This document shows positions 42,736 through 64,000 of a stretch of 64,000 nt of DNA, in pieces; position 1 is the first letter of the stretch; the number at the start of each line of letters is the position of its first letter. A model generated the notes under the pieces. The model was given only the letters and a program-made list of their open reading frames with translations, was not told the DNA's origin and ran no database searches. Both the position numbers and the translations under genes were made by a program. This DNA comes from Paramacrobiotus metropolitanus (lineage: Eukaryota > Tardigrada > Eutardigrada > Parachela > Macrobiotidae): assembly GCF_019649055.1 (NCBI RefSeq), contig NW_026570274.1, positions 248,001-312,000 of the forward strand, written 5' to 3'.

Positions 42736-44894
42736 TTTCCAGTTGCATTCAGCATCCAAATAATTTTGCACCAGGTAAGATATGTCAGGTTTGTCCGTTC
42801 TGTCCAAGTTCAGGTTGAATTAGGCAGATTATGCCGCAAATAGCAGCGTCACCAAACAAATTCAAGTAAAGATGTTCAGGTGAAAATCAATGCAATAACT
42901 CACGGCCGAGTTTGGTATTTCTTAATCATTGGGATGTGGCTCCAAGAATCGTCCCACGTGTACAGTAAAGTGATACGAGCAAACATCTTTAAGGCTTCTT
43001 TAACAGGTTACTAAACAAAAACACTTCGGCGAAAGGAGATTAAGCGTTCTGGAGAGGCGGAAGTCGATCCCTGATTCCGAGCGTAGATTAAAAAAAATCC
43101 TAGTTTTGCGATATCTGCTATGGAAATCAAAGTCGCCCGATGAAGATGTCGTAAATAAGAAGAAAAGGAGAGATTTCAAATAAAATCACTTTGTTTCTGA
43201 GTACGTAACAGCGGCGTCGCCAAATTCCATCGCTGACGTAACATTTTTGTAACAGTTAATTTTATTTATCCGCACTATAATAACTGGCAATGTTTGAAGC
43301 AGAATCCATTATGGAAAGTTACCGATGCCGAAGGAGAATTAGCGGCAGACATCACCAAACAACCGGAAATGAATCTAAGCGCTCCTTATAACAAACCATT
43401 CGAGCGCGTAAAATACGGCACGTGGGCGTGCGTCAGAGCAGTCACGTCGCCGTTCGACGCATCTGTGCAGTATATTTACAGGTTGTACTACTACCGTAGT
43501 ATGTATAATATGTCACCGGCAAACATACCCCTCGTTCATAATATAATATTCTGACCCCGCGTTGCCCGCACTACCTTTGTCGATACCGTTTTACCTCTGT
43601 ACGTGTATTTAGGCCGGCTTCTTGTACCTAATTTAGTTGAGAGCACAGGTACGCAATGCGCTCCACGTCGGAAAACAGGGAGTACCGTGGGATGTTGCCG
43701 GTATTAGCCCAATTTCACTATACACTCCCCCTAGTCTATGCATTTATTTAAGAGCATCGAATGAAGTTTCTTGGTAGCGCTCACTCAAGAATTGTATTGT
43801 AACACTGTTTGCACCGTCAGAAACTGGAATTAAAATAATTGCTAAGATGGTTGATTGGCGAAGTTGGAGAGTTACGTTGCCACTTGTGGCCGCTGCCTGT
43901 GGTATTCCACTAAATTTAATACGTACTAAAAAATATCACGTAATATCTTCACATCCTTGGAAGAAATGCTACGAGTATAATATTATAATAGTACATCAGC
44001 GCGTAAACACGTTGCAGCAAAAATCGAAGCACAGTAGATGAATATGTTTATCTAACATTATTGCACTATCTGTATAAAACTGCTGTAGAAGATCTCACTT
44101 TTACTTATTTAACATTGCCCTAAATGTTTATGAAACACCAATACATAATTTAATTATGAGCGACTCAGCGAATACAAATAAATATAAAGATACAGACAGC
44201 ATTCAAAAAAGTTGCATCGTACAGCGCTAACTTAAAGCGGAAACAAACGGCCAAATTACAGAAAACATCTGGTCTAAATTAGCCGAGTGTGGCGCCGATC
44301 CCAAGATGAATGCCACGTTTGCACGTTGAATTTTGACGCTGATCCTGATACATTATTTCAATACACCGGTACTTCTGGTAAGTGGAAACGAAATAAATTT
44401 GATGCAAAAAAGTTGAAATCTCTAAAATTGTTTATTCCACAATGAAAAGCAAAACTTCTGGACATATATATGAAGGCGCGAATTATACAGTTATGTATAA
44501 ATTCAGCAACAACTTTGTACAGCGTGCACTTATTATACCTAATTTATTTAGGAAGCCAACCACTTTCGATAAAGTTACAATAGTATTACAAGCGCATTTA
44601 TCACTGGAAACAAAACAGTCTCAATATGAATAGGTGAAGTCGGGAGGTATCAAAACAAACGTTACGCAACCACAAAACATTTTCGGTTATTCTGATCTTT
44701 GTTGCTAATAGTTATTGTTGTTATTCAGCAGTTACGTACTAAAAAATCCAAAATGACAATTATTCGCAGTATGTTGGTGCACTGTCAGTTTTAAGGCATT
44801 TATAGCTAGCTATCGCACTTGCAAAACTAATGCTGTACAGTATAACGAACAGATGATACGTACGTGTACAGATACTACGCAGTATCTGTGAAGG
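42736..44894. other. Gene-poor stretch
   Basis: 2.2 kb without a supportable gene. A frame at 43847-44041 starts with a Val/Ala/Leu-rich N-terminus but has no other support. Confidence 0.35.
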
Positions 44895-45998: not shown

Positions 45999-46178
45999 CG
46001 TGTCAGAACCTAAACCACACATCCTTATGAAGTGGACCAGGGCAACGTCCTGTTCCTCAGAAAAATTTCAATATCAGCGTACACACGTCGGCGAATTTGC
46101 TTAATAGGTTCAAAGAAACATGTCCACTTCCTCGTACACGTGATGGAAACTAAAATTTCGCCAAATCTTAATATAAAA
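45999..46178 (+). promoter_or_regulatory. Array promoter module, copy 1
   Basis: CGTGTCAGAACC, then AAGTGGAC, then CTCAGAAAAATTTC and ATATCAGCG, ending at a TATAAAA (46172-46178) 190 bases before the ATG. The same ordered blocks precede every member of the array. Confidence 0.75.
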
Positions 46179-46361
46179 TCGGCTACCATGACACTTTACC
46201 TAGCAACTTCCGTGAAATGTAGCGCGTCTTCTGTACAGCTACATAGTGTTCGCATCTTTGCTTTGTTATTTTAATTGGCAGAACTTCTGAACCGGTTTCG
46301 GGCCTTCAGACCACCCGGCAAAGTTCACCTACTGCCATTTTTTTTACTTTTTCCTCTCATC

Positions 46362-47012
46362 ATGCTGCCGCCCATCTCGTTTTTGATCTTGGGCGCGAGT
46401 ATTTCGCTTATCGTAAGTGTCAGTTCCGAAAACTTAGTGCACTTATGACAAACAGTGCTACCTCAACTTTTGTAATGATTAATAATTTTTTAGCGCACTG
46501 TAGAAATGCAGCCATACACAACCTTCGAAGAAACCCACCGGATCAATCCGGAATTCGGTATGCCGAAGCACAATGCCACAACTGTCGTTCCAGCAGCACT
46601 ACATAACAATGTATTCCGAGAGCCTGATTATCCGAATGGACAGCCACTTCCGATGCAGTATCGGAGTATGCCTGCACTCTTCGACCCGGCATCCACTGGA
46701 GAAACACATGTTAATCACTCCCGGAAACTTCCCGGGCTCGCACAACCGGCTACGTTTATCCATACTGGAGAGAATCTCAACATAACGGCAGAAAGAGTTC
46801 AGGCAGAAGAAGCGGCAGCAGCGAATACAACGCCATCACCTTGCGGTCCCGATGTCCACCCTGACGATTGTATTGACGACAACCTTGACGTTACTAATAG
46901 TACGGAATCGATACCCGAAACGACAACACCATTCGAACCTGTCAACGAGCCGGAATTCCTCAAGCTGCTGATCGGCCGCGATCTCGAAAACAGCACAGAT
47001 ACTCGGGGTTAA
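46362..47012 (+). CDS. Array member 1: Thr-rich secreted protein
   Basis: 189 residues, family not recognised. Exon 1 (46362-46412) is a 17-codon hydrophobic signal segment (MLPPISFLILGASISLI) ending at a GTAAGT donor. Exon 2 (46494-47012) starts in phase 0 after TTTTTTAG. It reads RTVEMQPYTTFEE, then YRSMPALFDPAS, then the family signature FIHTGENLNITAERVQAEE, and ends in a Thr/Pro/Glu-rich tail with four or more N-glycosylation sequons and two cysteines (PCGPDVHPDDCID). It should be secreted or, if the signal is not cleaved, anchored. It is acidic and probably disordered. The orientation, promoter and two-exon plan match the seven other copies downstream. Confidence 0.75.
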
Positions 47013-47753
47013 TTTTTCAAATGTTTCTTGTTTTATTTTGTTTGTAACGCATTCCCGCCGTTTGATCCTGCAGAGCAAATATTAAGTTGCTTGATAGTGT
47101 TGAGAAAAGTGCCGGGAACGCCGGGAACGTTACTTGAAACTGCGTAGGATCACTGTTTTCCTGTTTTTTATTGTCTGCCAACTTTTAAATTATCTGTTAC
47201 AAAATTGCAGCTAGTTAGTTATTTTTTTTCTATCATGGCGAAGTAGGTTCACTACAGGCAACAACAACAGATTGTGTTAAATTAATGTTTTTAATGTGTT
47301 ACGATTTTTCGCTGCTATGCAATTTGATAAAAAAAGTTGCGCTGCATTGCGGCGAGCCGGCTACGATATCAAATTCATTTTGTACAATGAGACAAAAATT
47401 TTGTAAATCTGATGGAATTACAGTTAAAGTATTGATCAAATTAAACGTAATAAAATCATAATACATCATGTAAATTCTTTCGTATCTAAGCACTAATTGT
47501 GTTGGTCCAGCCAGTCCCAGCAACAAAGTGGGCACAAGGTTCCCGCTTTGCTTGCTCAGCAAAAAGTACTTGACCGCATAAATAAGTAACAAAACAGATA
47601 TCAATCAAGAATACACACAAAAGAAACGTACACGGGCAGCGATGTTCATAAATTACAAACTGCTGGACTGTTGTCTAAAAGGTGCAGAGGTATTTCCACT
47701 TTGTTGCCGAACGTAGGGCGCCAAACTGCCTGTGAAAGCAGTATATCCACATC

Positions 47754-47971
47754 GTGTCAGAATCGAAGCCGCTCACTTTGTGAAAACAGCGAAGTGGATA
47801 CGGAAAACGTCCTTTTCCTCCAAGAAATTTCCATATCAGCACATTTACACAATTAAGACAATTTCATTTTCTGCACTTTTAACTGAATTCTGCATATCAG
47901 ATTCACAGAAACATTTCTGTTTCTTCGTACGCACTAAGAAAACTAAAGTGTTGTTGAATTTTACTATAAAA
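47754..47971 (+). promoter_or_regulatory. Array promoter module, copy 2
   Basis: GTGTCAGAATC, GAAGTGGATACGG, CTCCAAGAAATTTCCATATC and a TATAAAA at 47965-47971, 188 bases before the ATG of array member 2. Confidence 0.8.
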
Positions 47972-48152
47972 CCGGGTACAATGCTTCCTGTTGGTAACGG
48001 CCGGCATATCGGCATGTTGCACAAATTTTACTGCTTTCAGTTTACGCTTAAATGCCGTTACTTGCGTATCGATTACTGCTCTAAATTTGGACTTATGCGC
48101 AATCAGTTCAGGAAATTTTGTGAAGAGCTACAATCCGCCATTGCTCTAAACC

Positions 48153-48807
48153 ATGCTATCATTCAACGGGATGCTGATCCTCGGTGGGAGTGCTTTATTT
48201 ATCGTACGTGTGAATTCAAGAATTTTATTTGGTACAAACATAGCGACGTTAGAGTTTTTGTAACCTATAGTGCATCGTGGAAACGCGACCGTATAAAACA
48301 TACGAAGAAAAACACCGGATTATCCTGGAATTCGGCATGCCGCAGGCTAATCTAACAACCGCGACTGCAACACCAGTGATCAGAAATGTACTCCTGGCGC
48401 CCGATCGTCCCAGTAGTCCAGCACCCCCGATGCATTATCGGAGTATGCCTGCGTTCCTTGACCCGGCATCCATAGGAAAAGCATCTGATGGGCACTTGAG
48501 GAATCACCCTGGCCTCGTTCAACCGGCTACTTTTATCCATACTGGAGAGCACCTTAACATAACAGCGGAAAGGATTCAAGAAGAAGAAGAGGCCGCACGG
48601 CACACTACGGAATCGCCCTGCGGCCCTGACGTCGTTCCGGAAGATTGTATTGACGACGAAATTAGTACGACGGAAGCGCCACCCGAAACTACCACGCCGT
48701 ACGACCCTCTCAAAGACTCGGACTTCGTAAAAATTCTGGTGGGATTAACGGGACGCGAATTAGATGACGATGGACCAGAAGATGTTTGGATTAGTATTCC
48801 GGATTAG
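48153..48807 (+). CDS. Array member 2: Thr-rich secreted protein
   Basis: 195 residues and the closest relative of array member 1. Exon 1 (48153-48203) has 17 codons (MLSFNGMLILGGSALFI) and a GTACGT donor. Exon 2 (48271-48807) follows CCTATAG in phase 0 and reads CIVETRPYKTYEEKHRI, then YRSMPAFLDPAS, then FIHTGEHLNITAERIQEEE, a PCGPDVVPEDCID segment and an acidic Thr/Pro tail. The spacing of the two cysteines is the same as in member 1, so a small disulphide loop is likely. Exon 1 was located by its match in length and pattern to the other copies. Confidence 0.75.
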
Positions 48808-49647
48808 CACTTATATGATCGCATTCAATTGCATCATGGCATTTGGATGGGATCCCGCAGAACGCATTTCTATGATTTTCATTCTGATTGTCATATTGTG
48901 GAAATTTGCAAGATGCTGCATGAGACCTGGACCCTGCATTTTTTTCGCGTGGTTTTAATCCCTAAAAATTGTTGATAAACAGTTAGCTAAATTATTCGCT
49001 TAAATACTGTACGGAGTCAAGTTAGAGTAAATAATAGTGAATCAGTTTAGTTTAACGATTTTGTGTAAATACGCGATATTTGCGCGCCCAGTGCGTTCAA
49101 TGCCACGCCACCTGCGACAATTGTTTTGTATATAAATGGCACATTGTATTGCAATTCTGGGACGATTTAAAGTTTTTATGTGTAAACTGTAAACCCAGAA
49201 AATCGAACTGAAGTACAAGTACAGATGATTACGTACTAGTACTAAGCACCAGGCCATCGCCTTACTCAAGGGGCTTCACTGTATTGTGTACAGTGAAGTC
49301 TGTGTTGTATGAAATACAATACAGCCCCTAGAGAACCGCGTTGCATAGGCCAAATGAGCGCATCTAACAGTACTTATTGATTTAATTTGTGTGAGAAAAC
49401 GCAGAAACAAAACGCACTTGACTGCATACATAAGGTACAACCGGCATTACAGTATGTAATAATATCAAATATGTACTTACAACGTTACAATAAACAGGTA
49501 TAGTTTTTACAATCACGAAAGGTAAAGTACGTTGTTACTAATGCCTTTCCATATTATACAGCTGTCACATTATTAATGACATTTCCGATTGTTGCCATGC
49601 TTGGTAAGCGAAACTAAGTTAGGAAGCGGCATTCACCTATATATACC
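48808..49647. other. Intergenic within the array
   Basis: The 3' flank of array member 2. No other gene recognised. Confidence 0.35.
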
Positions 49648-49811
49648 GTGTCAGAATCAAAGCCACTCAATATGTGAAGTGGGCACGGATAACTTCCTGT
49701 TTCTCCAAGAAATTTCCATATCAGCATTCAGCACCTTTGTGCACATAAGGCAGTTCGGCCAAGCCGATTCAGAGAATCTTCCTTCTTGTAAAAATTTCTT
49801 CTTTGTATAAA
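49648..49811 (+). promoter_or_regulatory. Array promoter module, copy 3
   Basis: GTGTCAGAATC, GAAGTGGGCACGG and CTCCAAGAAATTTCCATATC are all kept, with TATAAA at 49806-49811. It precedes a decayed copy of the gene. Confidence 0.75.
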
Positions 49812-50176
49812 TGACAAAGCTCAATAAACTGGGAAATTCAATTACGATGAAAATGGTTAGCGCTTAGCGAGTTTTATTCCTCATGGCAATATACAGATAG
49901 ATGTACATGTACAGATAGCTCATACCATCATATCAAACCTGAATTACACGGTCACATTTTACAAAATATTTGTGCACTAAACATTTTCCTTGTAACCAGT
50001 CACTGAACTGAAATACGATATTTTGCAAGGGAACGAGTACGGTATTTTGACTTTTATATGAGTTTTGTATTCCTGGGAGGAATAGTTAATAAGAATATAT
50101 TCAAATCATCATGTTATAATATGACCGATGCCTGATGACATAGTGCAGTAATCGCAGAAATTTTTTTATTTTAGAG

Positions 50177-50450
50177 TGCGCATTCGAAACGCGATCTTTC
50201 AACTTGACGCCCATTCCCAGAAGAATGCGCAGAGTGCGCACACAGAACTGCTGAAAAATAACCAGCGGCCGCGGCGTTCACCCGTTTGAGCCCGAGATTT
50301 CAACGAGCGCGAAAACCAAGCCTGACCGTTAAAACTGTTCGTCTACCATTCGGAAACAACGCCCCCACTGGGACCGCTACGTTCATCCATACCGATCGCC
50401 CTGATCTGGCCACCAAAAGAAATCGCAACATTAAATTGAGCGGGACACCA
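50177..50450 (+). pseudogene. Array member 3, decayed
   Basis: An exon-2 remnant after TTTTAGAG starts CAFETRSF (compare CIVETRPY in member 2) and stops after 26 codons. About 180 bases on, in another frame, the signature survives as FIHTDRPDLATKR. No signal exon could be found between the promoter and this remnant. The promoter module upstream is better preserved than the coding part. Confidence 0.65.
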
Positions 50451-51122
50451 AATTTCATGAGCGGGACACCAAAATCTGTAGATCACTATATTATAGTATC
50501 GTCTTCGCTAAATTTTTATTTTGTGTATAAATATATAAATTTATACACGACTACATTTTTCAGCGATTTTACAGTGTGTTCTTGGTTGTTGTCATAATTG
50601 CTTTTCGTTATTTCACGCACCAGCACAGGTTGTTGTACGGATACAATGCCATCGCAATTCTTACTCGAAAATGTCGAGAAACACAGCTTAAAACATGCGA
50701 TTTACATATTGAATATTATATAATTTCATTTAACCTCCCGGCAATGCCCTCCGTTACCGAATACGGGAACCAATAAGTACCTGCACCATGCGGCACTTAT
50801 TTCCCGGCCCTCCCATTCCGTAACAACGCAATTTTTCAAGGGAACAACCTTTGGGAAACCTAAGAACCCTACAGAAGGGTTTACGCAAAATACTGACCCC
50901 GAAATATATAAAATACTTCTTAGACAACATTTCAAGACTATGTGTTGTTAGAATGTATTCAAATATTTAACGTAAATTTTTTGACTTTCCAGTAAGACTT
51001 CAAATGCGTAAATAATATGTGGTTTCCAAGTGTCTGTTCTTAGAAAAACATTTACACGGTCAGCGGCCAGGTGACAAAGCAGCATTTTAAGCGTTTTCGT
51101 CAGAAATTCAACAAACCGGCTT

Positions 51123-51200
51123 GTGTCAGAACGGAAACGCTTGTTCTTCTCACTAACTGTAGGCTGACTACGATGGTTTTCCTTGCACACTGCTCGTATT
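51123..51200 (+). promoter_or_regulatory. Array promoter module, variant type, copy 4
   Basis: GTGTCAGAACGGAAACGCTTG is followed by a segment shared only with the promoter at 63436 (TAGGCTGACTACGATG against TAAGCTGTCTACGACG). It lies 240 bases before the ATG of array member 4. The AAGAAATTTCC block and a clear TATA box are missing. Confidence 0.55.
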
Positions 51201-51363
51201 CTGCTAATTTCGCTTTAGTTGCGCTTCTAACAGGAAAGTTTTTTTAAAGTTTGCTCATTTTAATTGGCAAATATCACGTACTTTATCGGTGATCATTAAT
51301 TCGGTTCCATAATTTTGCTTTGCCACGGTTGGTTATCAGTCGGCGATGTCATTGAAGAGTGCG

Positions 51364-51775
51364 ATGTCGTGCAACGGAGCAATTACACTCGCCATGGTTC
51401 TTTTATCGCTATCTATAATGGTACGAATAACCTGGCTTTTAGTATAGATAAGGTTGTGATCGCATTGTGCAATATAAGATTGTTTTTGCTATTTCGTAGT
51501 CGGCCGTGGCAATGCGCCCATATAAGATAGTGGAAAAAAAATACAAAGTCATGTGGGATTTCGGTAACGTTGAAAAAGTTGAAGCACCGGCAGTAGCGCT
51601 CCCTGCCCAAGGCCGAAGTATTGGTCTGAGATTCGGATCAAACCCATGGGGTCTGATTGCGACCGATGATCCATTTGAGACCACAACCACTGAAGTAACG
51701 ACGACAACGTCGCCTGGAGAACCAGAAACGACAACTTGGCTACTTGCGGCTTTTTATGAATTTATGTTCGGATAA
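51364..51775 (+). CDS. Array member 4: short Thr-rich secreted protein
   Basis: 110 residues. Exon 1 (51364-51420) has 19 codons (MSCNGAITLAMVLLSLSIM). Exon 2 (51500-51775) follows TTTCGTAG in phase 0 and reads SAVAMRPYKIVEKKYKV, the N-terminal signature of the family. The FIHTGE block is absent. Instead a run of Thr/Glu (FETTTTEVTTTTSPGE) leads to a hydrophobic C-terminus (WLLAAFYEFMFG). It belongs with array member 8 to a second subfamily that has its own promoter variant. Confidence 0.7.
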
Positions 51776-52136
51776 TTGTCTCTACTCGCAAAACAAAAGT
51801 GCATCATTTTGTTACAAGCTGTTTAGTACATTCATTTTTTGAACAGTTACAGTTAATTGTTTTGTAAGCCTGTTGCGCGCTCATTTCCAATGAATATATA
51901 TCAAGTGGTTTCGAAGGTACAAATATTAGGTGCAAATCATTCTGTCCAAAGCAACGGTATATTAAATTTGAAATGCTTTAAATTTATGTACAAGATCGTG
52001 TAACGTGAAAGCTACGCACTTTGTTCATTTTGTTTATGTGTACATTGCCTGCGTTTTCATATCTTTGGACGATATTAAAAAAATTAAAGATCGATACTAA
52101 CCGTAAAACGACCTAGGAATACAGAACAGATATATG

Positions 52137-52285
52137 GTGTCAGAACCTGAACCGTTTTCCATTTAGAAGTGGACTTGGGACAACGTCCTCTTCTTCCGAG
52201 AAATTTCCACATCAGCGCTTTACGCACTTATGCACATTTGCTTATCAGATCTACAGAACTAGTTTCAACTTCCTCGTACACGCGA
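52137..52285 (+). promoter_or_regulatory. Array promoter module, copy 5
   Basis: GTGTCAGAACCTGAACC, GAAGTGGACTTGG and CCGAGAAATTTCCACATCAG are readable. No good TATA box is left. It precedes the LTR-split member 5. Confidence 0.65.
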
Positions 52286-52469
52286 TTTAATTAAAATGTT
52301 GTCAAATTCAACACGAAACCGTCAAGTTGTCAACCATGATATTTACTTGAGCAATTTGCGCATCTGCGGTATCGCATACATTGTTTTTTGGGTTTAATTT
52401 CTACTGTCGGCACTTTTGCACCGCCTTCATTAAAAATACCCGAAATAAGTTTAGCCACCTTCGAATAAC

Positions 52470-53180
52470 ATGCCATTGTTCAACATGATTTTAACCTTCC
52501 GCATGAATACTTCGTTTATCGTAAGCATAGATTCAAAAAAGTGATTGTACTGGCGATTAATAATGGGACGATAGTCTGTAGCTGTATGTGCGCTCGTATA
52601 AAATGACAATTAACAACGTTAATTGATGTTAATGTTAGCTGGAGGATGTGTGCTCTCGCGTTTCCCTTTTCGCCGTGTGTAGGCAGCTACCTGTGTTGGT
52701 GGCGCTGCGAGTTGCTGTGGCCGCTTAGATCAAAGCAGCCGCCGGCACTCACGCGCCTGCTTTTGCTCTCGGCACTGTTTCTGTGCCCGCGTTGGGTTCT
52801 GCATTTCTTGTTCGTGTGCGCGCGAGTGATTTGTTCTTTACCACCCGCCACACCCTGCTGTTGTGCTGCTGTTATTTCGCGTTGCTCAATAAAGGGGCCT
52901 TCGGTTGCGCAGGGCACTGGTCGCTCTCTTGCGCCGACCCCCGGTCGGCCGGCTTCTCGCTGACCCAGGGTCACCGCACACAGCCGATCACGAGAGTACC
53001 AGCCGCCCAGCAGCCGGGGTTCCAGCACCCCCCAGTGGATTCCGGAAGCGGTAACATTAATCATCATTTAATGTAATGTGGAAATGCGTCCGCAATGACT
53101 CCGCATACAACGTTCCAATAACCACACGGACTCATCCTGGAATGCGGCAGCACAGTGATCCACCTGCATTTACGGCACCA
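52470..53180 (+). pseudogene. Array member 5, decayed and split by a solo LTR
   Basis: Exon 1 (52470-52520) is still a 17-codon hydrophobic segment (MPLFNMILTFRMNTSFI) with a GTAAGC donor. The exon-2 remnant from about 53066 reads NVEMRPQ and then a stop, and nucleotide similarity to member 2 continues to about 53150 (CTCATCCTGGAAT against TTATCCTGGAATT). The acceptor AG is gone. A 424-base solo LTR lies in what was the intron. The result is non-functional. Confidence 0.65.
52633..53056. mobile_element. Solo LTR
   Basis: 424 bases that begin TGTTAGC and end GGTAACA (inverted TGTTA/TAACA termini), flanked on both sides by TTAA, a 4-bp target duplication. It is markedly GC-richer than its surroundings. 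An AATAAA occurs at 52888-52893 at a place fitting an R-region polyadenylation signal, which suggests plus orientation. No internal retroelement coding sequence is present, so recombination between two LTRs probably removed it. Confidence 0.7.
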
Positions 53181-54730
53181 CTCCTTGGGTATTGTATATA
53201 CTTTCGGATGCTTTTTAAACAATCTCGAATATGCCTGATCAGCACAGCACTGATCACCACATCTAGTTCTGCTGAGAATAATGAAAAAAAGAACTTAACC
53301 TGTTTCTTCCCATTGATATCAAAGTGATACCGTGGAGGGCTTTTGCTCCTGCACCTGAACGCATCATGGGAATTTTGATTTTTCAGTTTGATTAGCGAGT
53401 TAAGATGTGGAGGCCTATTTTACAAAACTTGACCACTAAGTATAAGTCTAACGTGCACTCGCCAGTGGTCACCAAAGTCGGCCATTTTTTTATCCACGGG
53501 TGACCGGAGGTCGCTAACACCTCCTGGCCATCCGCGTGATGCGAAAAAATCTAAATAAATGGGTTAGGTAGTTGACTCTATGTGTTACCTGATACAACCT
53601 AAATTTTTGTAATATGTGAAATGGATGATCACTGGCGATCTTTTAAAGAACATGGTATCATTTTGACAACAACGGGCAATGGGGTACATTACAGCCATTA
53701 TACAAAATTTCCTAATAAACTCAGTATAAGTCGCAACATTCTGCAAATTGGTATTCTAAGACAACGTTTTATGGGCTTTCAACTGGAAGTGTTTTGGTGG
53801 TCACCGAAGTGACCACCATCCAGTTGCGAAAATTGATGCCCCATGAAATAGATATTCTTTTCCTTTTTTTTTGCGGCCGAAAGTTATTGTTGCAGGACAA
53901 CTGCATGCAGACAAATGTGATAAGCAAACGATGGTCAGTGGTCACTAATACGGCACTGTGTGTTTATCAGCGTGCGCTATACCGTTGAATACGAGCGCAT
54001 AACATGCAAGTATACGCACGAATTTCCGGTTACTTAAGAAGGCTATTGCTATAGCGTCCAGGAAAGCGTCCAAAGCTTGACCACCGACTGCGGGCTAGTA
54101 GTAACTACCTTCTGTAGTGGTCAGCGAAGCTTGCTGACCGCTTTGACAGGTGCGCGGTCTGAGGTAATTAAGTTTATCTTGGGTCTTTGGCGTTATTCGT
54201 GGACCGAAAATCAAATACCGAAGCGATTTCGCCCTTGTGTGTTATAATTTTAGCTGTTTGACGTTTGAATGCTCTTCTAGTGACCGGCAGCGTTAAATGG
54301 GCAGTGTCCAGGATTCCGGTAAACGGTTTTTGATTATTTGTATGTACAGTTTCTGTATTTCAAAACGGTTTGGCGCAGTAACAGACGCATTATTGTGTTG
54401 CTGACCGGTGGTCATTTCGACGGCCAGTAGTATTACAGTATTTTATCGACAACTCCTAATTTTCGTGGTCTAATTCGAACGGGATCGGGTACCGGGATGT
54501 CCTGGGTTAACCCGAGGGAAGATCCGAAATAACGTCAGAGTACATGCTTTCCTTGCACGAGTACCTGATATACCATTGCATGATTTCTCACTAAGACACC
54601 CGGGATGAGCTATTGGTGTCAGGCGCAATAAAAGGTCGGAAGAAATAAATCATACAAGTGGTCGCATCTCGCTCATCTCGCAAAAACTCGCAAAACTTCC
54701 CAAAAATCAGTATGAGTATGCCCAACCCAA
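53181..54730. other. Intergenic, with scattered GTGGTCA-type short repeats
   Basis: No gene. The heptamer GTGGTCA/TGACCAC and relatives recur many times between 53420 and 54470 in both orientations (for example GTGGTCACCGAAGTGACCAC at 53795). This looks like an old, fragmented repeat element. Confidence 0.35.
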
Positions 54731-54880
54731 GTCGGTACCCAAACCACTTGTCATTATGAAGTGGACGGTAGACTCAGCAGTCAGCACCCTCTTCTTCCTA
54801 TAATTTCCATATCAGCATATTATACTCGTAGGCAAATTCACAGAAATATTTTTACTTCATCGCCCACATGATCACAACAA
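54731..54880 (+). promoter_or_regulatory. Array promoter module, copy 6 (diverged)
   Basis: GTACCCAAACCACTTGTCA, ATGAAGTGGAC and AATTTCCATATCAGC remain. It is 320 bases before the ATG of array member 6. The TATA box is not obvious. Confidence 0.6.
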
Positions 54881-55060
54881 TAGTGCTGCTCAGTTTTGTT
54901 ATAACACTGGCTACAATAATGCTTAGCAATTGCCGAACTGTCGATTGTCCAAATTTCCTGATTTTTGCTGCACATTGCTTGCGCACCGATTGCTGTCTTT
55001 AAGTCACCTAAACTTGCTCAAAATCAGCTTAAAAAATTTATCGAGGAGCATTACCCAGCC

Positions 55061-55505
55061 ATGTTGTCAACAAGTGCGATTTTGATACTCGGTGTTAGCG
55101 CTTTCTTAACTGTACGTGCCAAAAAATCCAGAACTGCCCAAGGCTGCATAACGTAACCCCTTTTTTGTTTTTACATTTATATAGTGTGCAACACCTGGGT
55201 ATACAACACCACGCCCCAAATATCGATTCCAGCCCTCTGATGGTCTCGATGGTCAGGTCCTTCGGAGGCAATCTAGGAGTATGCCTGCGCTTTTAATGCC
55301 GGCTTCGTTTATCCATACTGGAGAAAACCTCAACATAACGGCGGAAAGAAATCAGGCAGAAGCAACAGCCGCAGCACTGACCACCACGTCCATTCCTGAT
55401 GACGACAATAATGGAAATGAAACGGACACGGAGGAAGATTCCGCAACAACAGCAGAATACCAATTTTATCAATTCAAGAAGCCGTGGGGACCGTTCCTCG
55501 CTTAA
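55061..55505 (+). CDS. Array member 6: Thr-rich secreted protein
   Basis: 123 residues. Exon 1 (55061-55111) has 17 codons (MLSTSAILILGVSAFLT) and a GTACGT donor. Exon 2 (55185-55505) follows TTATATAG and starts CATPGYTTPRPKYRF, so the PYK-type N-terminus is diverged. RSMPALLMPAS and FIHTGENLNITAERNQAEA are intact. The tail is acidic (DDDNNGNETDTEED) and ends KPWGPFLA. The cysteine pair of members 1 and 2 is missing. Confidence 0.75.
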
Positions 55506-56549
55506 TGAAAGCGAGGAACGCCATCCAAGCACGCAGATTTTATGAGCAGCACCAAAATCTAACCATACATATAACCCGTATCCGCAAGTTGGTATCGTAT
55601 TCATTTACCTGTGAACTCAGCAGCCATCCCGTATTAGAAGGCAGATGTAAATGATGTTAAACATTTATTGGAAAGTTTGTTACGAATTTACCATTGACGA
55701 TGAATAGTAGACAGAGTTTGTATCTTCGATGCTATTAAATCTGCCGGTGCAACTGTTCTGTACTTAATTAATTCTACCGTAGAAAACATTTTTTTAATTG
55801 CATCTGATATCTCTTAGAAATTGCCGCATGTTCTTACGATTTGTAAAACTGCTCATGGTACTTTGTCTTTCTTGTCGTACTGCAACTCAAATAACAACAA
55901 TTCGCGTAATTAGCAATTATGTACACATATAATGAAGGCGTCCGCACAATGCAGTATCACGCCAAAAGAAAGCAGTTGGCTGATAATCATGTAGATACGA
56001 ATTTAGCGTTAACATAAGAATTTTTGTTGATTTTCTGCAAATTTCTCATGAATATCGATTGATAATGCTAGAAAGGCCATTCGAAAAAAAGCTTTGTATA
56101 CAAACGTTTAACGCCTGCTGTGCACTCACGCATCAGGGTCGTGCGATGGAGGCACGTTGCAACTTTAAAGCGTAATCGCACCGACTGAAGGGATGACTTC
56201 CTTAATTTCACTGCCGGTTCGGTAAGAACTACAGTCACAACCTATTCTATCTCATCGCACCGGGATGAACTCCCTAATGCAAGCAGGTAAACAGAGAAGA
56301 AACTCCGAAATAGCTACAGAAATTTCAGTTATTGAAATGCAGAATTCGGGCCTTTACTTCAAATTATTTCACGTGCGTCCTAGTGACAAATTTGAGTAAA
56401 GCGCACATGTTATGAATAACTGTATCTACGTAAGTAGTTGGCATAAAAGACGGCATTCTTCAGAAAATAAGACTTTGCTCAAACTACACCAGACAATCTC
56501 CTGAAAACCCATGCATTGTGTGCTTAATATTTTGCTTCAGTTACACACC
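55506..56549. other. Intergenic within the array
   Basis: The 3' flank of array member 6. No gene recognised. Confidence 0.35.
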
Positions 56550-56728
56550 GTGTCAGAACCTAAGCCACTTGTCAGATGAAGTGGACTGGAAAAATATTCG
56601 GTTCCTCCAAGAAATTTTTAAATCAGCATTTTATGCACATGCAAATTTGCTGAAAAGATTCAGCGAACGTTTTCTACTTCTTCGTACCCACTACAAAACC
56701 GGCATCTTAGCTGGATTGCACTATAAAA
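56550..56728 (+). promoter_or_regulatory. Array promoter module, copy 7
   Basis: GTGTCAGAACCTAAGCCACT, GAAGTGGACTGG, CTCCAAGAAATTTTTAAATC and TATAAAA at 56722-56728, 136 bases before the ATG. Confidence 0.75.
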
Positions 56729-56857
56729 GGGCTATAAGTGCGATTATAGAGTCATTTGTAGGATAAGCGGCACCTTGAATTTTATTTTCTGCAACCTGCA
56801 GAATATATAATCGCACCATAATTATTATCCGTGCTTTATCCAGCCTTTAGTTTAAAC

Positions 56858-57210
56858 ATGATGTCTTGTAGCGGTATTTTGATTGCACTCGTATGTGCGG
56901 GTAGTGCATTGGTGGTAAGCGTCATTATTCTTGGAAATTCGTTCGGAACTGTTATAAATGATAACGAAGCGTGCGTAATTTTCAATTTTTATAGTGTAAT
57001 GCCGAAAAGCAGTCAACTGCGTGGGAGGCTTGGTTCGGACCGGCACCGTACATCCATACTCGTGAGAACCTACCAAACCTGACCGCCGAAAGAATTAAGG
57101 CAGACGCAGCGGCCGCAGAGACGACCACGGCCAATCCTTACGAAAACATATACAGCGCATACGAGAACGATACGTCTGTAAAAGCCACATACAACGTATA
57201 TTTTGCTTAG
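56858..57210 (+). CDS. Array member 7: minimal secreted protein
   Basis: 90 residues, the shortest intact member. Exon 1 (56858-56914) reads MMSCSGILIALVCAGSALV with a GTAAGC donor. Exon 2 (56995-57210) follows TTTTTATAG and starts CNAEKQSTAWEAWFG. The signature appears as YIHTRENLPNLTAERIKADA, with a two-residue insertion. The tail is Ala/Thr-rich, then Tyr-rich (NPYENIYSAYEN). The RSMPAL block is absent. It shows that signal plus signature is enough to be kept as an open gene. Confidence 0.7.
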
Positions 57211-58592
57211 TTGAAATTTCCTTGGTAGCCGTTATTCGAATTAGTTACAAGTGATGCACAATTTGTTAAGTTTGAAGATTTAATGCTCTTCTTCTGTCTA
57301 AAAAATTGCGGCGTCGTGTGTACGATTTTCATGTTTTCCCACATACCGTATATATATACGAATATATTCGTAGTCAGCAGCAAAAATTTCATAAACGGTA
57401 AGATAAACTTTATTTACAAAACCGCTTAAGGAACAGTCAGAGTAAAAGCCGAACTGCATTATGAGCATTCGTAAGTACCTATATACAGCGAAGATTTCAC
57501 TAACTGCGCTCTGAAGTCTATTGCCCCATACTGCACCGACTTTCGTTCTGTTACTGTCCACGAGGTGTTTACGGCTATCTTCATTTCACAAATCACCGTA
57601 CGATTTCCGGTTATCACCATTTCACAGTACGAGTGTTCCTGAATATCTGCCGTGCACCAGCCATGTCAAAATGCCTGTAACGCACGAACAGTGTGGTATG
57701 GGACGCCGTGTGTATGAAAATTGGCGTCACCCGTGAATTTGTTTTTTTTTCGCTTGGGTTGTATGTACTGTTTTTTTAAGGCTACTAAGTAGTGGTACTG
57801 GTTATTGCACCTGCTATGGTACTGTTACTGTTAGTGGTAGCGAGAAATCGCCGAAAATGGTACTGTTAGTGGTTCCAGCTGTGGTTGTAGTAGTGTGATG
57901 CCATATCATGTAACTGGTACTAGTAGTGGTCGTAATTATGAAACTGACGCGGGTAGTATGGTTACCGGAAACCATTAGAATATCGCTGGACAGATGCCTA
58001 AAAAGCAGCGTAAGCAAAACTTCTAGAAACTAATTTCGTAATATGAATGCTGATACTCGTACTTTAGCAATGTGACAGCGCAATCGAATTGACAATAATA
58101 TAAAATGGTCTCACTTATGCAGCAGCAAAGTAGTGAAAGTACTATTACGTAATACGGTAATACAGATAATAAAACTTGCAAACTTCTTGAAAAATTTTGG
58201 TAGCGTTAAGGAAAGTAATCGCTGATATCAACACTGGGTGGCGGAGCAAGATGTCGGTTTCCTGTTTTACATGTATGATGTAGTTTACATAGTACAGATA
58301 CTGTATTTGTACCACTACCAATGTAGTAGCAACGTTAACTCATACTAACCATAAGTGCCCTTTTCGCCGTATTCGTGGGTAGGAAGTTACGGAACAGGCT
58401 TGTACATCCTACAAACACAGTCGCATTCGGTGAACCGCAATGATTACTCGACAACTATCGGGGAAACAGAGCAGTCCAATTAATTATGCACCTGCAAACG
58501 AAATAATTATTAATTTTTGTTTAATTTAAGCTTTTGGCAGCGTCTTCCGTTACGGAATGCCGGAACCAGTGTGTACCGGTATCATTCGGTTC
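57211..58592. other. Intergenic within the array
   Basis: No gene. The stretch 57785-57935 is locally enriched in TAGTGGTACTG-type short repeats. Confidence 0.35.
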
Positions 58593-58974
58593 TAGTGTTG
58601 GGTCGGCCCGGCCCGGCGCGGCCCGGCCCGAGCAAGAGGGCCGGGCCGTCGTTTACACGGCCCGGGCCGCGGGCCGATCCGGGCTGCGGCCCGACATGTC
58701 CCCGGGCCGTCTTGCAGCACAGTGATATTTTTTACCCGGATGTCATTATGCACGCGGCTACAGCGTGTATGTCAACGGAAAAATAGACGGATTTTCGCCT
58801 AGAAACGTCTATTGCTGTGAAAATTAAGAAAAACTCATTGAAAACTATTAAATTTCAGTAAATCGCAATGAAATTTTTTGTTTTTTCTACGTCTTTTTCA
58901 ATATTTAACGTCCACAACGGGCCACGGCCCGGGCCGTTCGGGCCGCGGCCCTGGGCCGGGCCGGCCCAACACTA
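58593..58974. mobile_element. GC-rich hAT-like MITE
   Basis: 382 bases with termini TAGTGTTGGGTCGGCCCGG and, inverted, CCGGGCCGGCCCAACACTA. They are flanked by an 8-bp target duplication with one mismatch (TTCGGTTC and TTCGGCTC). The terminal TAG and the 8-bp duplication are typical of hAT elements. Both ends are extremely rich in CCCGG/GGCCC, while the centre is AT-rich. No transposase is encoded. Confidence 0.75.
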
Positions 58975-60118
58975 TTCGGCTCCACTGTCCTCCCGTTTCT
59001 CGCCTCTTCGTCCTCCTCCTTCTTCGTCTATTTCTTGTTCTCTTTTTCCTGTTCCCTCCTTATTTCCCTCTACTCGTAGTAAAAGTGCCCAGTTGTTGAG
59101 AAATATCGTTGTCTTTGACTATTTAAACGCACATTTGTGCCAATATGACCCTTATTTTGCAGCAAATTTTACGGTCGATTGCTCACATAACATGGCATAA
59201 GTATGAGTATGCAGTTCTTAAAATATGGTTTCTAAAATTCTTCTTTTGTTTTGTTATATGGCTTTTAAAATTCTCAGAATTCCAAGTCTTCACAAGTGTT
59301 GAGGTTGTTCAAGACTCGTAGATCGGAGACTCGTAGATCAAGACTCGTAGATCGGAGCTCGCTTAAGCATATTTGCAGCTTTCTCTTTAGTTTAGTCTTC
59401 TTAGTTTTTTCAGGTTTGTTTGGTGCTCAAGCTGCAAGAGAGCGTTTTTTCTGGACAAGAGTAACCTAACCATTATGTCTACTGCCTTTTTTGTATTTTG
59501 TAGCCAAGCGTTTTGGATTTACCTGGAAAATATGAGAAAGTAGTTGGCTTGCTGATTTTCAGTACGAGTAGACTTTTCATAAATTGCGATAAAGGTATCA
59601 GTATGTACAAGTATAACAACACAAAGGACATCAAAGACTAGAACCACCATGTAAGTAGCGAAACTGGAAGCCATGCAACTTGACACAGATATGAGTTTTT
59701 ACGCTGGGTCCGGATGCAAGGGAAGCCGCAGCAAACGGTTGATTGACTCAGCAGCTGATATAAAAAAGCCTGAGCAGCTTGGATTCCGGAAGCTTCTGTT
59801 TCTGAGCTTGGTCTGGTTGAGCCACGAGATTTAATGGAGTTCTTGTAACTGTCTGCACCTGTCTTACGACTACAGAAACTTGTTTTCTATGTAAAAAGCA
59901 TTGAACTAACAGTGACTGTCTGCTACCGGTAAGTGCTTTCATCTTTTTAAGGCAAGCGATTGTGCTAGAAAAGCACAAATCAAACAACTTTTCCTGCAAC
60001 CGTTATCGCTCCTTCCGATTGCAGTTCCGATCAAAAGCTCCGAATTCTTTGAAACGAGCAGCACGTTCAATGATTTCAGCGATCGCTAGGCACGTGGTTT
60101 GAGCTTCAACCATCTACC
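58975..60118. other. Intergenic region
   Basis: No supportable gene. A short direct repeat, AGACTCGTAGATC, occurs three times at about 59312-59354. Confidence 0.35.
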
Positions 60119-61036
60119 ATGGTCAGCACTAACTTCTCCGGTAACTTCTCCGGTAACGCAAGTTTTGCTTCGTTATACTCCTCTGAAGAGCAGTATGGAT
60201 GGATAGATGCATTTGGTGTTGTCACCTACGGTCTGGGATTTCTCTTGAATTTTTTGGTGGTTGTCGTGTGTATCGCGCGCAAAAGATTTCGTACACCGTT
60301 TTTCTTTAATCTGTTGACCCTAAACTCGGTCATCGCCTTAGAAAACCTGGAGTGTTTCATCAGCGGTTATTGCTACTGGTGGACTAACATTTGCCAGGAT
60401 ATCATCCCGTGTGCAATGGATGCGTATGCATCCTGGATACTTAAGGGAGTTATCGTTAACCTCCACGCTTTACTGACCATAAACCGGTTATGGGCCATGT
60501 TTTTCCCGCTGTCATATCATCGGTACTTTACGCACCGGCGTTCTCTGTGGATGGTTTTAGTTGTGTTTCTGTATGTGCATTTATTTTGCCTGCCAGAAAT
60601 AGTTATCTACGCCAGCTACGGTTATACGGCTTGCAGATTGGTTCCAGATCTCGTTACTGGTTTTTTGCTATGGGCGCAGATTGTCATGGTTGTCGTTTTT
60701 GATCTGCCGTTGCTGTTTCTGGCCTTGGCTTTGCCGTTAACACTCTGCAGATATTTTTCCTACCGTCACAATCGGAATCGGCTTTTTAAGGGTGTTGTAA
60801 CCATTAGTATGCTGACAGCATGCGTGCTGATTTGCTGGGTTCCGCAGAACGCAGTGGCCACAGCGTTTTTCTTTCAAATTATTGACGAGGAACTTTTCAA
60901 TGGAGCGGGTACAATTATCGAAATCTTGTATGTTCTGCTGGACATTTTGGTCCCTGTGATTGTGCTGTGTACTACCCTCAATGTCCCGAATGCTGTTGGC
61001 TCCTTGATCCGCCTTAGCTCTCCCCGTTTGTCATAA
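60119..61036 (+). CDS. Rhodopsin-like orphan GPCR, single exon
   Basis: Predicted class A GPCR of 305 residues. The ATG is in a good context (ACCATGG). The N-terminus contains tandem NFSGNFSGNAS sequons. Seven hydrophobic helices are present. Helix 3 ends TINRLWAMFFPLSYHRY, the NR[VIL]WA form shared with the three NR-W receptors on the minus strand at 11.8-24.2 kb. Helix 6 has LICWVPQNAV and helix 7 LLDILVPVIVL, so NPxxY is lost. The C-terminal tail is very short (about 18 residues after helix 7). It sits in the middle of the secreted-protein array on the same strand. Confidence 0.85.
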   Translation: MVSTNFSGNFSGNASFASLYSSEEQYGWIDAFGVVTYGLGFLLNFLVVVVCIARKRFRTPFFFNLLTLNSVIALENLECFISGYCYWWTNICQDIIPCAMDAYASWILKGVIVNLHALLTINRLWAMFFPLSYHRYFTHRRSLWMVLVVFLYVHLFCLPEIVIYASYGYTACRLVPDLVTGFLLWAQIVMVVVFDLPLLFLALALPLTLCRYFSYRHNRNRLFKGVVTISMLTACVLICWVPQNAVATAFFFQIIDEELFNGAGTIIEILYVLLDILVPVIVLCTTLNVPNAVGSLIRLSSPRLS

Positions 61037-62010
61037 ACCGCAGACTGCGAGCCGAACATCGTTTGTTACGATTTTCGGTGTCACCCAGTTCCCAAGCATG
61101 ACTTCGTTTGTTTGTTAAGTTAGTTAGTCCATGCTAGTTAGTATGCAAAAACAAAATAATTGTGCATTTTATTGTACCGCTCAAGCGTTTCGATCACAGT
61201 GCATTTACTTTTTTCTTTTTTTTTGTTCCTTTAGAATGTTTAAAGTCTCATGATTTGCTCAGTTGTATTCAGCTCCATTCAAAACACTGTATATATGTAA
61301 GTAGAATGAACAAAATGCGCATTTACCAAGTTCAACGGGCGTATACATTTAAATTGTTCCAAAACGCTATTCTGTAGACTGCAGGGCAAATAACGATTTC
61401 GCGCCGCTTAACAGAACCGAAGTTTTGTCAGCTGGCATGAGTCATCCGAGCGTGCAGTTTATTTCCATTCACTGAAGCTTGTAACCGTAGGTCGTTTATG
61501 CATTTGAAATCGTATTAGTAAGTCAAAAAATAGTTTAATGCGTTACGGACAAATACTTTAATGCATTCTAACAAGGACGTTCAACTTGGATCAAGGTATT
61601 ATTGTAACAGCCATAAAAGTAATCTATTCGTTAGTGCTCCGTGCGTTTTGGGGACACTGTTTTGCGTCATCCCTCCTGGAGAGGATCTCTTGGTTTTCTG
61701 AAAGGGGTTTTCCCTTGTCAAAATGCATTTTGTGTGATATTAAGAGTAGAGGAATAGGACTGTATTTGCGTGTTATTAATCGATAAAATACGGTGTTTAG
61801 CGGCTAGCGGATACTAATTCTAAAGTATCTACTATCTAGTATCAGTATCACTCTACATAGTATCAGCGAAGAAGAATTTTAATTAGTTCCGATGGCATAA
61901 TCGTAGTGCACCGCTTGGATCTGCTTACAGATATTATCGTTCTGGTTTTATGACCTCATTATTTCAAATGCACCGAACGTACATTTTGCGCTCAATGTCA
62001 AAACTCATTC
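61037..62010. other. Intergenic within the array
   Basis: The 3' flank of the GPCR and upstream region of promoter copy 8. No gene recognised. Confidence 0.35.
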
Positions 62011-62184
62011 TGTCAGAACCCAAAACACTTGTCTTATTTAGAAAGGACAGGAATAACATCCGGTTGCTCCAGGAAATTTCCAAATCTACACTTTTCGCGC
62101 TTAAGCAAATTCTGCTTGAGCAAACCATCCAACTTCCTCATAGACACCACAAAACTGAGAGCAGCGTTGGATTCCACTATAAAA
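62011..62184 (+). promoter_or_regulatory. Array promoter module, copy 8
   Basis: TGTCAGAACCCAAAACACTT, CTCCAGGAAATTTCCAAATC and TATAAAA at 62178-62184 are clear. It precedes a copy with a broken reading frame. Confidence 0.75.
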
Positions 62185-62346
62185 GCGACTTCCGTGCCTT
62201 TATGAATATACCTGTTATATACAAAACGATCAGCCTCTGCTGGCGCGTCTACCATACATAAACTTAAATCTTATTGTCCACTTTCAGGATAGCTTCACAC
62301 TGCTAAAAGTTTTCTTACTTGCAACCTGCCTTTGAACGAGAAAACA

Positions 62347-62724
62347 ATGTCTTGCAGTGAAATTTTAATATTCTATGCGAGTTTGCATTCATTGTAAGCG
62401 CAATCTTTCATTTAAAATTATTCCAAGCATCGCACTATAACGGGCCTTTCTGTGGAAAATGTTTGGAATTTTTGATTTTTTATAGTGCACTGTAAAAATG
62501 GAATCTGGTGTACGTACAACAGAGTGGGATACCTGGAGGGGATCGGGGAGCCGTCATCAGTGTTCATCCATGCTGATCGACCCAATCTAACCGCCGAAAG
62601 AATTCAGGCAGAAGCAGAAGCCACAACCATCGATCTTATAGCGGATATTGTATTGCCGGCGTATGGGGCAACCCCTGACACTGAGCAATGGCGTCACAAT
62701 ACGGACGAAACCACTCCCGTATGA
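62347..62724 (+). pseudogene. Array member 8a, frame-disrupted
   Basis: Exon 1 (62347-62393) reads MSCSEILIFYASLHS but reaches its GTAAGC donor one base short of the phase used by the family. Exon 2 (62486-62724) follows TTATAG. In the family frame it starts CTVKME, while the signature FIHADRPNLTAERIQAEA lies in another frame that is open across the whole exon. Joining exon 1 to either frame gives an early stop unless a weak GTTTGC donor inside exon 1 is used. Most likely it is a recent pseudogene; rescue by the alternative donor cannot be excluded. Confidence 0.6.
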
Positions 62725-63435
62725 ACAACGCCGTTCGTACCTGCGGGCCCATTAAGATGACGACCACGGTATCATCAGAGAGCTTTGCCGCCAGGGGTTA
62801 CTCTCATTTTGTATTAGCAGAGTCAACAACCAACAAACAGCCTATATCAACAAACTGCACTGCGTGCGTGCATTAAACTTGTTTGCTTGCGTTTAAGAAA
62901 AACTCTACAAATGTAGCTGTGTTGGAGAATTATGCACAAACTGTTTGGAAACCGTCATGACATTAAAGACCAAATTTATAAATTTATTAGTACTAGTATT
63001 ATGCTACGTATTAATAATTTATATCATGTGGACAAAGTGCGCTTCGTGCTTTCCGTGGCTCACAACAGCAAACCGGCGTCAGAAACCGGTTTTGTATGTA
63101 CTATGTATATATAATTATTGCGTATAGCTGCCCGCCACGCAGGATAAATACTGCGCCACACATGTGGAAAACACAACGGAATTTATTCCATTCCAACATT
63201 TTTCTGGCCAGATAAGTTTTTTCCATCGTTAACATTTTTGTGGACGGGAAAGCTGATTTCGCAAAAGGTTGTGAATTCACATAATTTTCGCAATTTTTTT
63301 ACTTTGTAGTTATACTTCAGCTCACCAGCATTCTGCAGAACCGTTAGAAATTTCTGTGCACGGAAAATCGGTCAACTTCCTGCTGATAATGCATCGGTGT
63401 AAGCGCTTTTCCCAGGAATACTGTACAACCGGCTC
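62725..63435. other. Intergenic within the array
   Basis: No supportable gene between the broken copy and the last array member. Confidence 0.35.
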
Positions 63436-63517
63436 GTGTCAGAACGAAAACACTTGTACTTTTCACCGAACATAAGCTGTCTACGACGCTTTTTTTCGTC
63501 GGAAACTCGCTTATAAA
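63436..63517 (+). promoter_or_regulatory. Array promoter module, variant type, copy 9
   Basis: GTGTCAGAACGAAAACACTTG is followed by the segment shared with the 51123 module and a TATAAA at 63512-63517, 169 bases before the ATG. Confidence 0.6.
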
Positions 63518-63680
63518 GTGGTGCATGTCCTATTATCTTGCTTATTCAAAATTTCTGTGAAAGTCTAATTTGGATAAACGTGACTTGACGCAATCAGTGA
63601 TCAGCCGTATTAGCTTATTTATCCGTATTAGCTTATTTTTCACCATCAGTTATCGTGCGACGAAGTTATTAGTTGCTAAA

Positions 63681-64000
63681 ATGGCGTATCGCGGTGCGTT
63701 AACGTTAGCAATGCTTCTTCTGTCTACGGTAAGAATAATCGACACGTCATCCTTGTTTGAGTCGAGAATATCGTAGTTGCGTTCAATATGCAATAAAAGA
63801 TAGTTTCTGTAGTCGGTAGTTGAAATGCGCCCTTATAAAGTTGTGGAAAGGAAGTTCAAGATTACGCTGGACTTTGAGAACTCCGGCCAAACGGAAGTGC
63901 CAGCAGCAGCAGCACGGCTGATCCAAGTCCGACATCCATTACACGGCTCACACCGACCTGGACCGTGGTTTTTGGGTACAACTGCGACGGATTCCCCTTT
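63681..64000 (+). CDS. Array member 8b: secreted protein, cut by window end
   Basis: Exon 1 (63681-63728) has 16 codons (MAYRGALTLAMLLLST) and a GTAAGA donor. Exon 2 starts at 63813 after TTTCTGTAG and reads SVVEMRPYKVVERKFKI, then a Pro/Ala-rich segment with GPWFLGTTATDSP, still open at 64000. Exon 1 (TLAM..LLS) and the RPYK[IV]VE[KR]K[YF]K[VI] block place it with array member 4. Whether the FIHTGE signature follows cannot be seen. Confidence 0.7.

Follow-up and report, generated by a model that had tools for sequence, protein, structure and literature searches.

The window analysed here is a 64,000-nucleotide stretch of contig C54 (NW_026570274.1, positions 248001-312000) of the tardigrade Paramacrobiotus metropolitanus, and coordinates given for it are window positions. 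At ~45,970-64,088 it carries a tandem, same-strand array of small two-exon genes, whose products are probably secreted and match no named family. The initial annotation of this sequence had described at least eight same-strand copies. We confirmed the array and found nine units on one strand, but only six of them (m1, m2, m3, m5, m6 and m8) are intact with the complete plan, the last of these extending 88 bp beyond the end of the window. The other three are broken: one is a promoter with a relic of the protein core, m4 has a dispersed repeat between exon 1 and an exon-2 remnant, and m7 runs into a stop ahead of the core when exon 2 is read in phase 0, with the core lying in another frame. The repeat inside m4 (~415 bp, 52640-53055, TGTTA..TAACA, with TTAA on both flanks) occurs at 40 places in the genome among the matches listed, including this one (40 scored of 134 candidates). 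Translated searches of the next 79 kb beyond the array gave no additional convincing copy.

The two-exon plan proposed earlier holds in all six intact copies, each of which has a GT-AG intron in phase 0 and a single second exon. Their first exons are short and hydrophobic, as had been claimed, but range from 16 to 25 codons and not from 16 to 19; the longest, that of m3, would have 19 codons if the second ATG is the start. For m1 and m2 the joined exons are identical to the RefSeq proteins P0002 (189 aa) and P0001 (195 aa), which are themselves gene models, and m3, m5, m6 and m8 were not among the RefSeq proteins returned by protein searches. Judged by alignment, the likeness among the window copies is far above chance: m1 and m2 are similar at E = 1e-56 as DNA and at 3e-58 as protein (57% identity), m1 and m5 at 2e-14, and m3 and m8 at 7e-12.

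Features of the array in the window
Feature	Position	Strand	Details
m1 promoter	46000..46178	+	GTGTCAGAAC element 46000, AAGTGG 46030, TTTC..TATCAGC 46066, TATA 46172
m1 exon 1	46362..46412	+	17 codons, hydrophobic putative signal; identical in RefSeq P0002
m1 exon 2	46494..47012	+	172 codons, after an 81-bp intron
m2 promoter	47754..47971	+	TATA 47965
m2 exon 1	48153..48203	+	17 codons; identical in RefSeq P0001
m2 exon 2	48271..48807	+	178 codons, after a 67-bp intron
Broken unit	49648..50410	+	promoter 49648, TATA 49806, core relic FIHTD near 50382 (unit end approximate)
m3 promoter element	51123..51143	+	diverged; TATA not found
m3 exon 1	51346..51420	+	25 codons (19 from second ATG)
m3 exon 2	51500..51775	+	91 codons, after a 79-bp intron; N-terminal block only, without the NITAER core
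m4 promoter (broken unit)	52137..52216	+	TATA not found
m4 exon 1	52470..52520	+	17 codons; exon-2 remnant near 53080-53160, beyond the dispersed repeat
m5 promoter	54729..54905	+	diverged element, AAGTGG 54759, TATAAC 54900
m5 exon 1	55061..55111	+	17 codons
m5 exon 2	55185..55505	+	106 codons, after a 73-bp intron
m6 promoter	56550..56728	+	TATA 56722
m6 exon 1	56858..56914	+	19 codons
m6 exon 2	56995..57210	+	71 codons, after an 80-bp intron
m7 promoter (broken unit)	62010..62184	+	TATA 62178
m7 exon-1 and exon-2 relics	62347..62724	+	without continuous phase-0 frame; core in other frame
m8 promoter	63436..63518	+	diverged element, TATA 63512
m8 exon 1	63681..63728	+	16 codons
m8 exon 2	63813..64000	+	91 codons overall, after an 84-bp intron; end 88 bp outside the window

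The short conserved blocks that had been noticed in exon 2 are an N-terminal block, the motif RSMPA and a core. In m1 and m2 they read [TI]VE..PY[TK]T.EE.HRI..EFGMP, RSMPA and PATFIHTGE.LNITAER, followed by a TT-rich acidic tail, and the core shared by the family is N-[I/L/V]-T-A-[E/D]-[R/N]-I-[K/Q], followed by Ala/Glu and then by a Thr-rich linker. The copies m5 and m6 have mainly the core, and m3 and m8 only the N-terminal block. Because block content differs in this way, exon 2 is modular between copies.

The array is also not alone. Genome-wide searches, which covered the 533 contigs (169.8 Mb) of the assembly, placed nine units each on contigs C54 and C1, three each on C116 and C104, and one on C506, so that the family is tandem on C54, as had been stated, but this array is just one of at least four family loci. 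The total of ~25 units is a lower bound, because the searches score best candidates only; two of the units, the third on C116 and the one on C506, are known only as search matches. These genes share a promoter, a splice plan and a hydrophobic exon 1 across the genome, and their second exons differ strongly between branches.

The promoter, of ~200 bp, is a feature absent from the initial annotation. An alignment of the promoters of 17 modelled copies from C54, C1 and C116 shows, in order, CGTGTCAGAACC-AAACCACTT, TGAAGTGG, ACGTCCG, CAAGAAATTTC..TATCAGCACATT, TTC.TCGTAC.CACT and TATAAAA-CGGCT; most units have CGTGTCAGAACC-AAACCACTT, usually TGAAGTGG, and then CAAGAAATTTC..TATCAGC. The 17 copies, which include one that is frameshifted (L043) and one cut by the end of its locus (L049), all follow the same two-exon plan, although for C1 phase 0 is partly so by construction because exon 1 was sought there as a hydrophobic phase-0 piece. 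TATAAA lies 130-190 bp upstream of the ATG in 14 of them and was not found in m3, m5 (which has TATAAC) or L043. AAGTGG is present in 14/17 promoters, CCACTT in 11/17 and both in 10/17, with a spacing of 7-9 bp in nine of those ten; the pair might be read as a candidate NK-2 homeodomain site. In L049 an insert of ~600 bp separates the promoter halves.

The promoter is specific enough to find members of the family. When up to two mismatches are allowed, GTGTCAGAACCNAAACCNCT, the pattern for the first promoter element, has 27 matches genome-wide versus 6 for the reversed pattern, and 18 of the 27 are at family units (C1 9, C54 6, C116 2, C506 1). Among the nine non-family matches, eight are without TATAAA within 450 bp and in one it stands at +312; the core is missing from the 1.5 kb read at all nine. 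When only one mismatch to this first element is allowed, all 11 genome matches are at family units. The more diverged elements of m3, m5 and m8 were missed by GTGTCAGAACCNAAACCNCT. A second pattern, TCCAAGAAATTTCCATATCAGC, with up to three mismatches, has 11 matches versus 0 reversed, nine at family units or relics and two by chance. It led to C104:404,628, where downstream of a TATA box lie a 16-codon exon 1 and, in phase 0, an 89-codon exon 2; the protein is much diverged and resembles the core by eye only. Also on C104 are an exon 2 whose start codon was not found (402,613) and a promoter without a visible gene (393,845). Promoter-pattern matches on C25 and C142 were read and discarded as chance, as was a match on C227 (E 0.49, two internal stops).

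On C1, nine promoters precede copies whose 17-codon exon 1 resembles MLxYSVIxALYGSMVFM and whose exon 2 starts with C[TA][VI][ED][PTA]A. One of these copies, used as a protein query, matched 11 places on that contig, of which one has an internal stop and one is a short fragment with a stop; the frameshifted L043 is divided between two of the 11 places. Beside the C1 array, on the opposite strand, lies a promoter relic with no gene seen (L067, C1:3,959,453, plus strand). With m5 as query, weak matches appeared on C104 and C116; on reading, these proved to share the acceptor and the core, and those on C116 the upstream sequence as well. Two of the three C116 copies correspond to RefSeq P0003 and P0004, and their models, like those of m1 and m2, agree with RefSeq; these four genes are LOC129592715, LOC129592691 (m1 and m2), LOC129598157 and LOC129598161 (C116), all named as uncharacterized proteins. 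Although the C1 copies fall within the length range of the protein search, it did not return them, and they therefore may not be annotated as modelled. Profile comparison with hhalign links the C54 and C1 cores at E = 8e-6 (probability 84) and the C54 and C116 cores at E = 3e-10 (probability 97). The C54, C1 and C116 arrays are therefore most simply one family, not unrelated genes with a borrowed promoter; C104:404,628 could be either.

How the parts of these genes change is best seen in the 15 pairs among six intact C1 copies (of nine units), which are not independent. Identity is 0.77-0.90 in the promoter, 0.75-0.96 in exon 1, 0.68-0.80 in exon 2, 0.65-0.81 in the intron and 0.45-0.83 in the 3′ flank, and the promoter is better kept than exon 2 in all 15. 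The pooled ratio of nonsynonymous to synonymous substitution rates (dN/dS) is 0.33 for exon 1 (bootstrap 0.12-0.89), 0.84 for exon 2 (0.69-1.05) and 1.12 for the stretch of Cys loop and linker (0.77-1.56). These values point to constraint on exon 1 and to near-neutral change in exon 2 of the C1 copies, with overlapping intervals. Positive selection in C1 exon 2 was considered and is not shown by an interval of 0.69-1.05. In two pairs of C1 copies (L038/L040 and L041/L044) the C-terminal ends of exon 2 are near-identical and the upstream parts more different, a pattern that gene conversion or unequal exchange would give.

Rates such as these could also be those of a decaying or useless family that duplication alone maintains, its reading frames being leftovers. 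The exon-2 dN/dS of 0.57-1.13 in individual C1 pairs fits such decay, as do the three broken units among nine in the window and the frameshift in L043. On the other hand, the promoter is conserved, exon 2 of m1 and m2 has a dN/dS of 0.38, and frames are kept in six C1 copies, each of which had a simulated chance of ~0.12-0.26 of acquiring no stop at K = 0.10-0.15, an argument that is overstated because these six were chosen as intact. Taken together, we regard mere decay as very unlikely.

The claim that the proteins belong to no named family was borne out, since a significant match to a known domain was looked for and none was found at E <= 0.001 in Pfam, NCBIfam or PDB sequences. The Pfam scans covered a set of 15 members, separately m3 and the broken m7, and separately m8, L043 and the C104 copy. 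The best values in the set, Cytochrome_P460 at 0.0041 and Shufflon_N at 0.017, each in one of the 15 members, were taken as chance, as were single PDB matches at 0.17 and 0.49. Lineage specificity also stood, in that protein searches returned P. metropolitanus proteins only, with 100-word seeding and the best 8,000 candidates scored, a reach that is limited when a family changes this quickly.

Tandem clustering, promoters with a TATA box and an intron placed where the signal sequence ends also characterise the chorion and cuticle genes of insects. The resemblance to the genes described here, with their short signal exon, one main exon and tandem, apparently co-regulated copies, raises the possibility of an extracellular matrix: follicle or epidermal cells would produce the proteins in large amounts for the ornamented egg envelope or the cuticle. 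The shared promoters and the common gene plan speak for this. However, the chains are rich in Thr, Ala, Glu and Pro and mostly acidic, with 0-8% Gly, 0-2% Cys and 0-9% Tyr (17 copies, exon 2 minus its first residue), unlike the typical insect proteins, and we found no chorion, cuticle or chitin-binding domain among the Pfam matches. A matrix role is thus possible, though we doubt it.

The secretory-abundant heat-soluble (SAHS) proteins of tardigrades are built on the barrel of fatty-acid-binding proteins (FABPs). Here no barrel was predicted, with weak models of two members, and there was no FABP or lipocalin match, so that by the tests applied the family is not SAHS. It nonetheless resembles them (compare PMC11127935) in a tardigrade-specific distribution, similar length, a multigene organisation and, probably, export. 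The proteins might be functional analogues of SAHS, namely secreted protectants in anhydrobiosis, disordered, glycosylated and made on drying. We take strain TYO to be P. metropolitanus. PMC8277472 describes this strain, the source of the published genome, as forming dehydrated tuns, which fits such a function, as would probable export and a predicted Ala/Glu-rich helix in the core. Nevertheless, beyond the missing barrel, much of the chain is poorly conserved and a third of the window units (3/9) are broken, and we give the protectant idea little credence.

The four LOC names were absent from the literature searched, and titles and abstract openings on tardigrade secreted, salivary, egg-shell and orphan families and on the P. 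metropolitanus genome contained no description of the family, an absence only weakly tested by such partial texts. Those on families with a conserved signal yielded nothing beyond analogies. The parts covered of a study of sexual dimorphism (PMC11191345) do not mention it. In the sources seen, then, these four genes are not tied into a family, which on this weak test looks undescribed.

Export is suggested by exon 1, whose best nine-residue hydropathy is 1.8-2.9 across the 17 copies. Eleven of these have the N-x-T sequon in the core, and 15 have an isoelectric point below 6. Confidence is low in most parts of the structure models, which disorder would explain, and the chains are probably disordered except for two hairpins in a C1 copy. 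The model of this copy (L050; mean predicted local distance difference test (pLDDT) 58.5, predicted template modelling score (pTM) 0.20) has hairpins at 73-91 and 139-157, with ten-residue block means of 76, 84, 88 and 78 and 65 at the edge, and a core helix at 14-24 that is unsure because its block means are near 54. The m2 model (mean 53.2, pTM 0.18) predicts helices only, with a core helix at 99-112 (block means 59-70).

In the C1 branch a furin-type site, R-x-[R/K]-R, is found in 7/9 modelled copies and is followed by a two-Cys loop in five of these seven, which could mean that cleavage at basic sites turns the proteins into signalling peptides or pheromones, with the many G-protein-coupled receptors (GPCRs) as their readers. 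A GPCR gene, recognised by Pfam, does lie inside the C54 array (60119-61036). However, the six intact copies of the window all lack the basic site, and among the best 129 of 852 GPCR candidates (this gene and 128 further genome matches) none lies close to the array on C1 or anywhere on C104 or C116, so a partnership with GPCRs is not supported. We consider peptide precursors improbable. Further GPCR-like genes in the window are at 41821-42819 (Pfam) and, by eye, at 11841-12911, 15501-16910 and 23086-24334. Elsewhere in the window, an open reading frame at 26439-27056 is Gln/Gly/Pro-rich with a hydrophobic start and a 63-bp tandem repeat and resembles a secreted repetitive protein, another at 21437-22135 has the look of a C-type lectin by eye and, as read, no Pfam match at E <= 1, and Rfam gave no match in the window at the gathering score.

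Our leading interpretation, to which we would give not quite an even chance, is that the genes encode a lineage-specific family of small proteins that are co-expressed in, and exported by, a single type of secretory cell. One shared transcription factor would switch the copies on, exon 1 would be a cleaved signal peptide, the core N-x-T would be N-glycosylated and the Thr runs O-glycosylated, and in the C1 branch cleavage at R-x-R-R might set free a short peptide, often with a Cys loop. The most probable function would be a secretion of a gland or epithelium (feeding apparatus, reproductive tract or body surface) whose precise sequence is of little consequence or under pressure to change. Conotoxin-type superfamilies offer a comparison in how such a system works, with tandem duplication and, as may hold here too, a conserved signal region and a variable remainder, but most members here have no fixed Cys framework (m3, m5, m6 and m8 have no Cys past the first residue of exon 2) and a long Thr-rich chain, and we know of no tardigrade venom organ. 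From common regulation to secretion, glycosylation, gland expression, tissue and function, these steps are what we infer from the sequences, and the effector, defence or matrix role suggested by the initial annotation has the same standing.

The near-neutral drift of exon 2 in the C1 branch, beside a better-kept promoter, supports a fixed promoter and signal exon attached to a fast-changing protein. Several observations weigh against this interpretation. In m1 and m2 the promoter is not better kept than exon 2 (0.66 versus 0.70) and exon 2 is constrained. The rate pattern is likewise not followed by exon 2 of m3 and m8 (dN/dS 0.16, with synonymous change near saturation) or of L042 and L047 (0.67), and the exon-1 and exon-2 intervals of the C1 copies overlap. 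The core is absent from m3 and m8, exon 1 on C116 is by eye a weak signal, R-x-R-R is missing from the six intact window copies, and L043, one of the 17 copies, combines its frameshift with a poor donor.

A bolder proposal, which we regard as speculative and rather unlikely, is that these genes are inherited as expression cassettes. The promoter, the signal exon and the splice sites would be copied to different places in the genome and held, while exon 2 would be a nearly free payload. As part of the same proposal, this payload would gain, lose or swap modules, namely the N-terminal block, the N-glycosylated core, hairpin repeats, and the furin-type site with its Cys loop. If true, the cassette would give tardigrades a counterpart of toxin or immune-effector arsenals, with homology clearer in the promoter than in the protein. 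The promoter and short signal exon provide a signature that finds members whose proteins align poorly, such as the C104 copy, and the spread and turnover of an orphan secreted family are therefore testable. The family is also a source of promoters that may be tissue-specific, in an animal for which few tools exist, and should the tissue turn out to be a gland, these proteins would be candidates for a secreted tardigrade arsenal.

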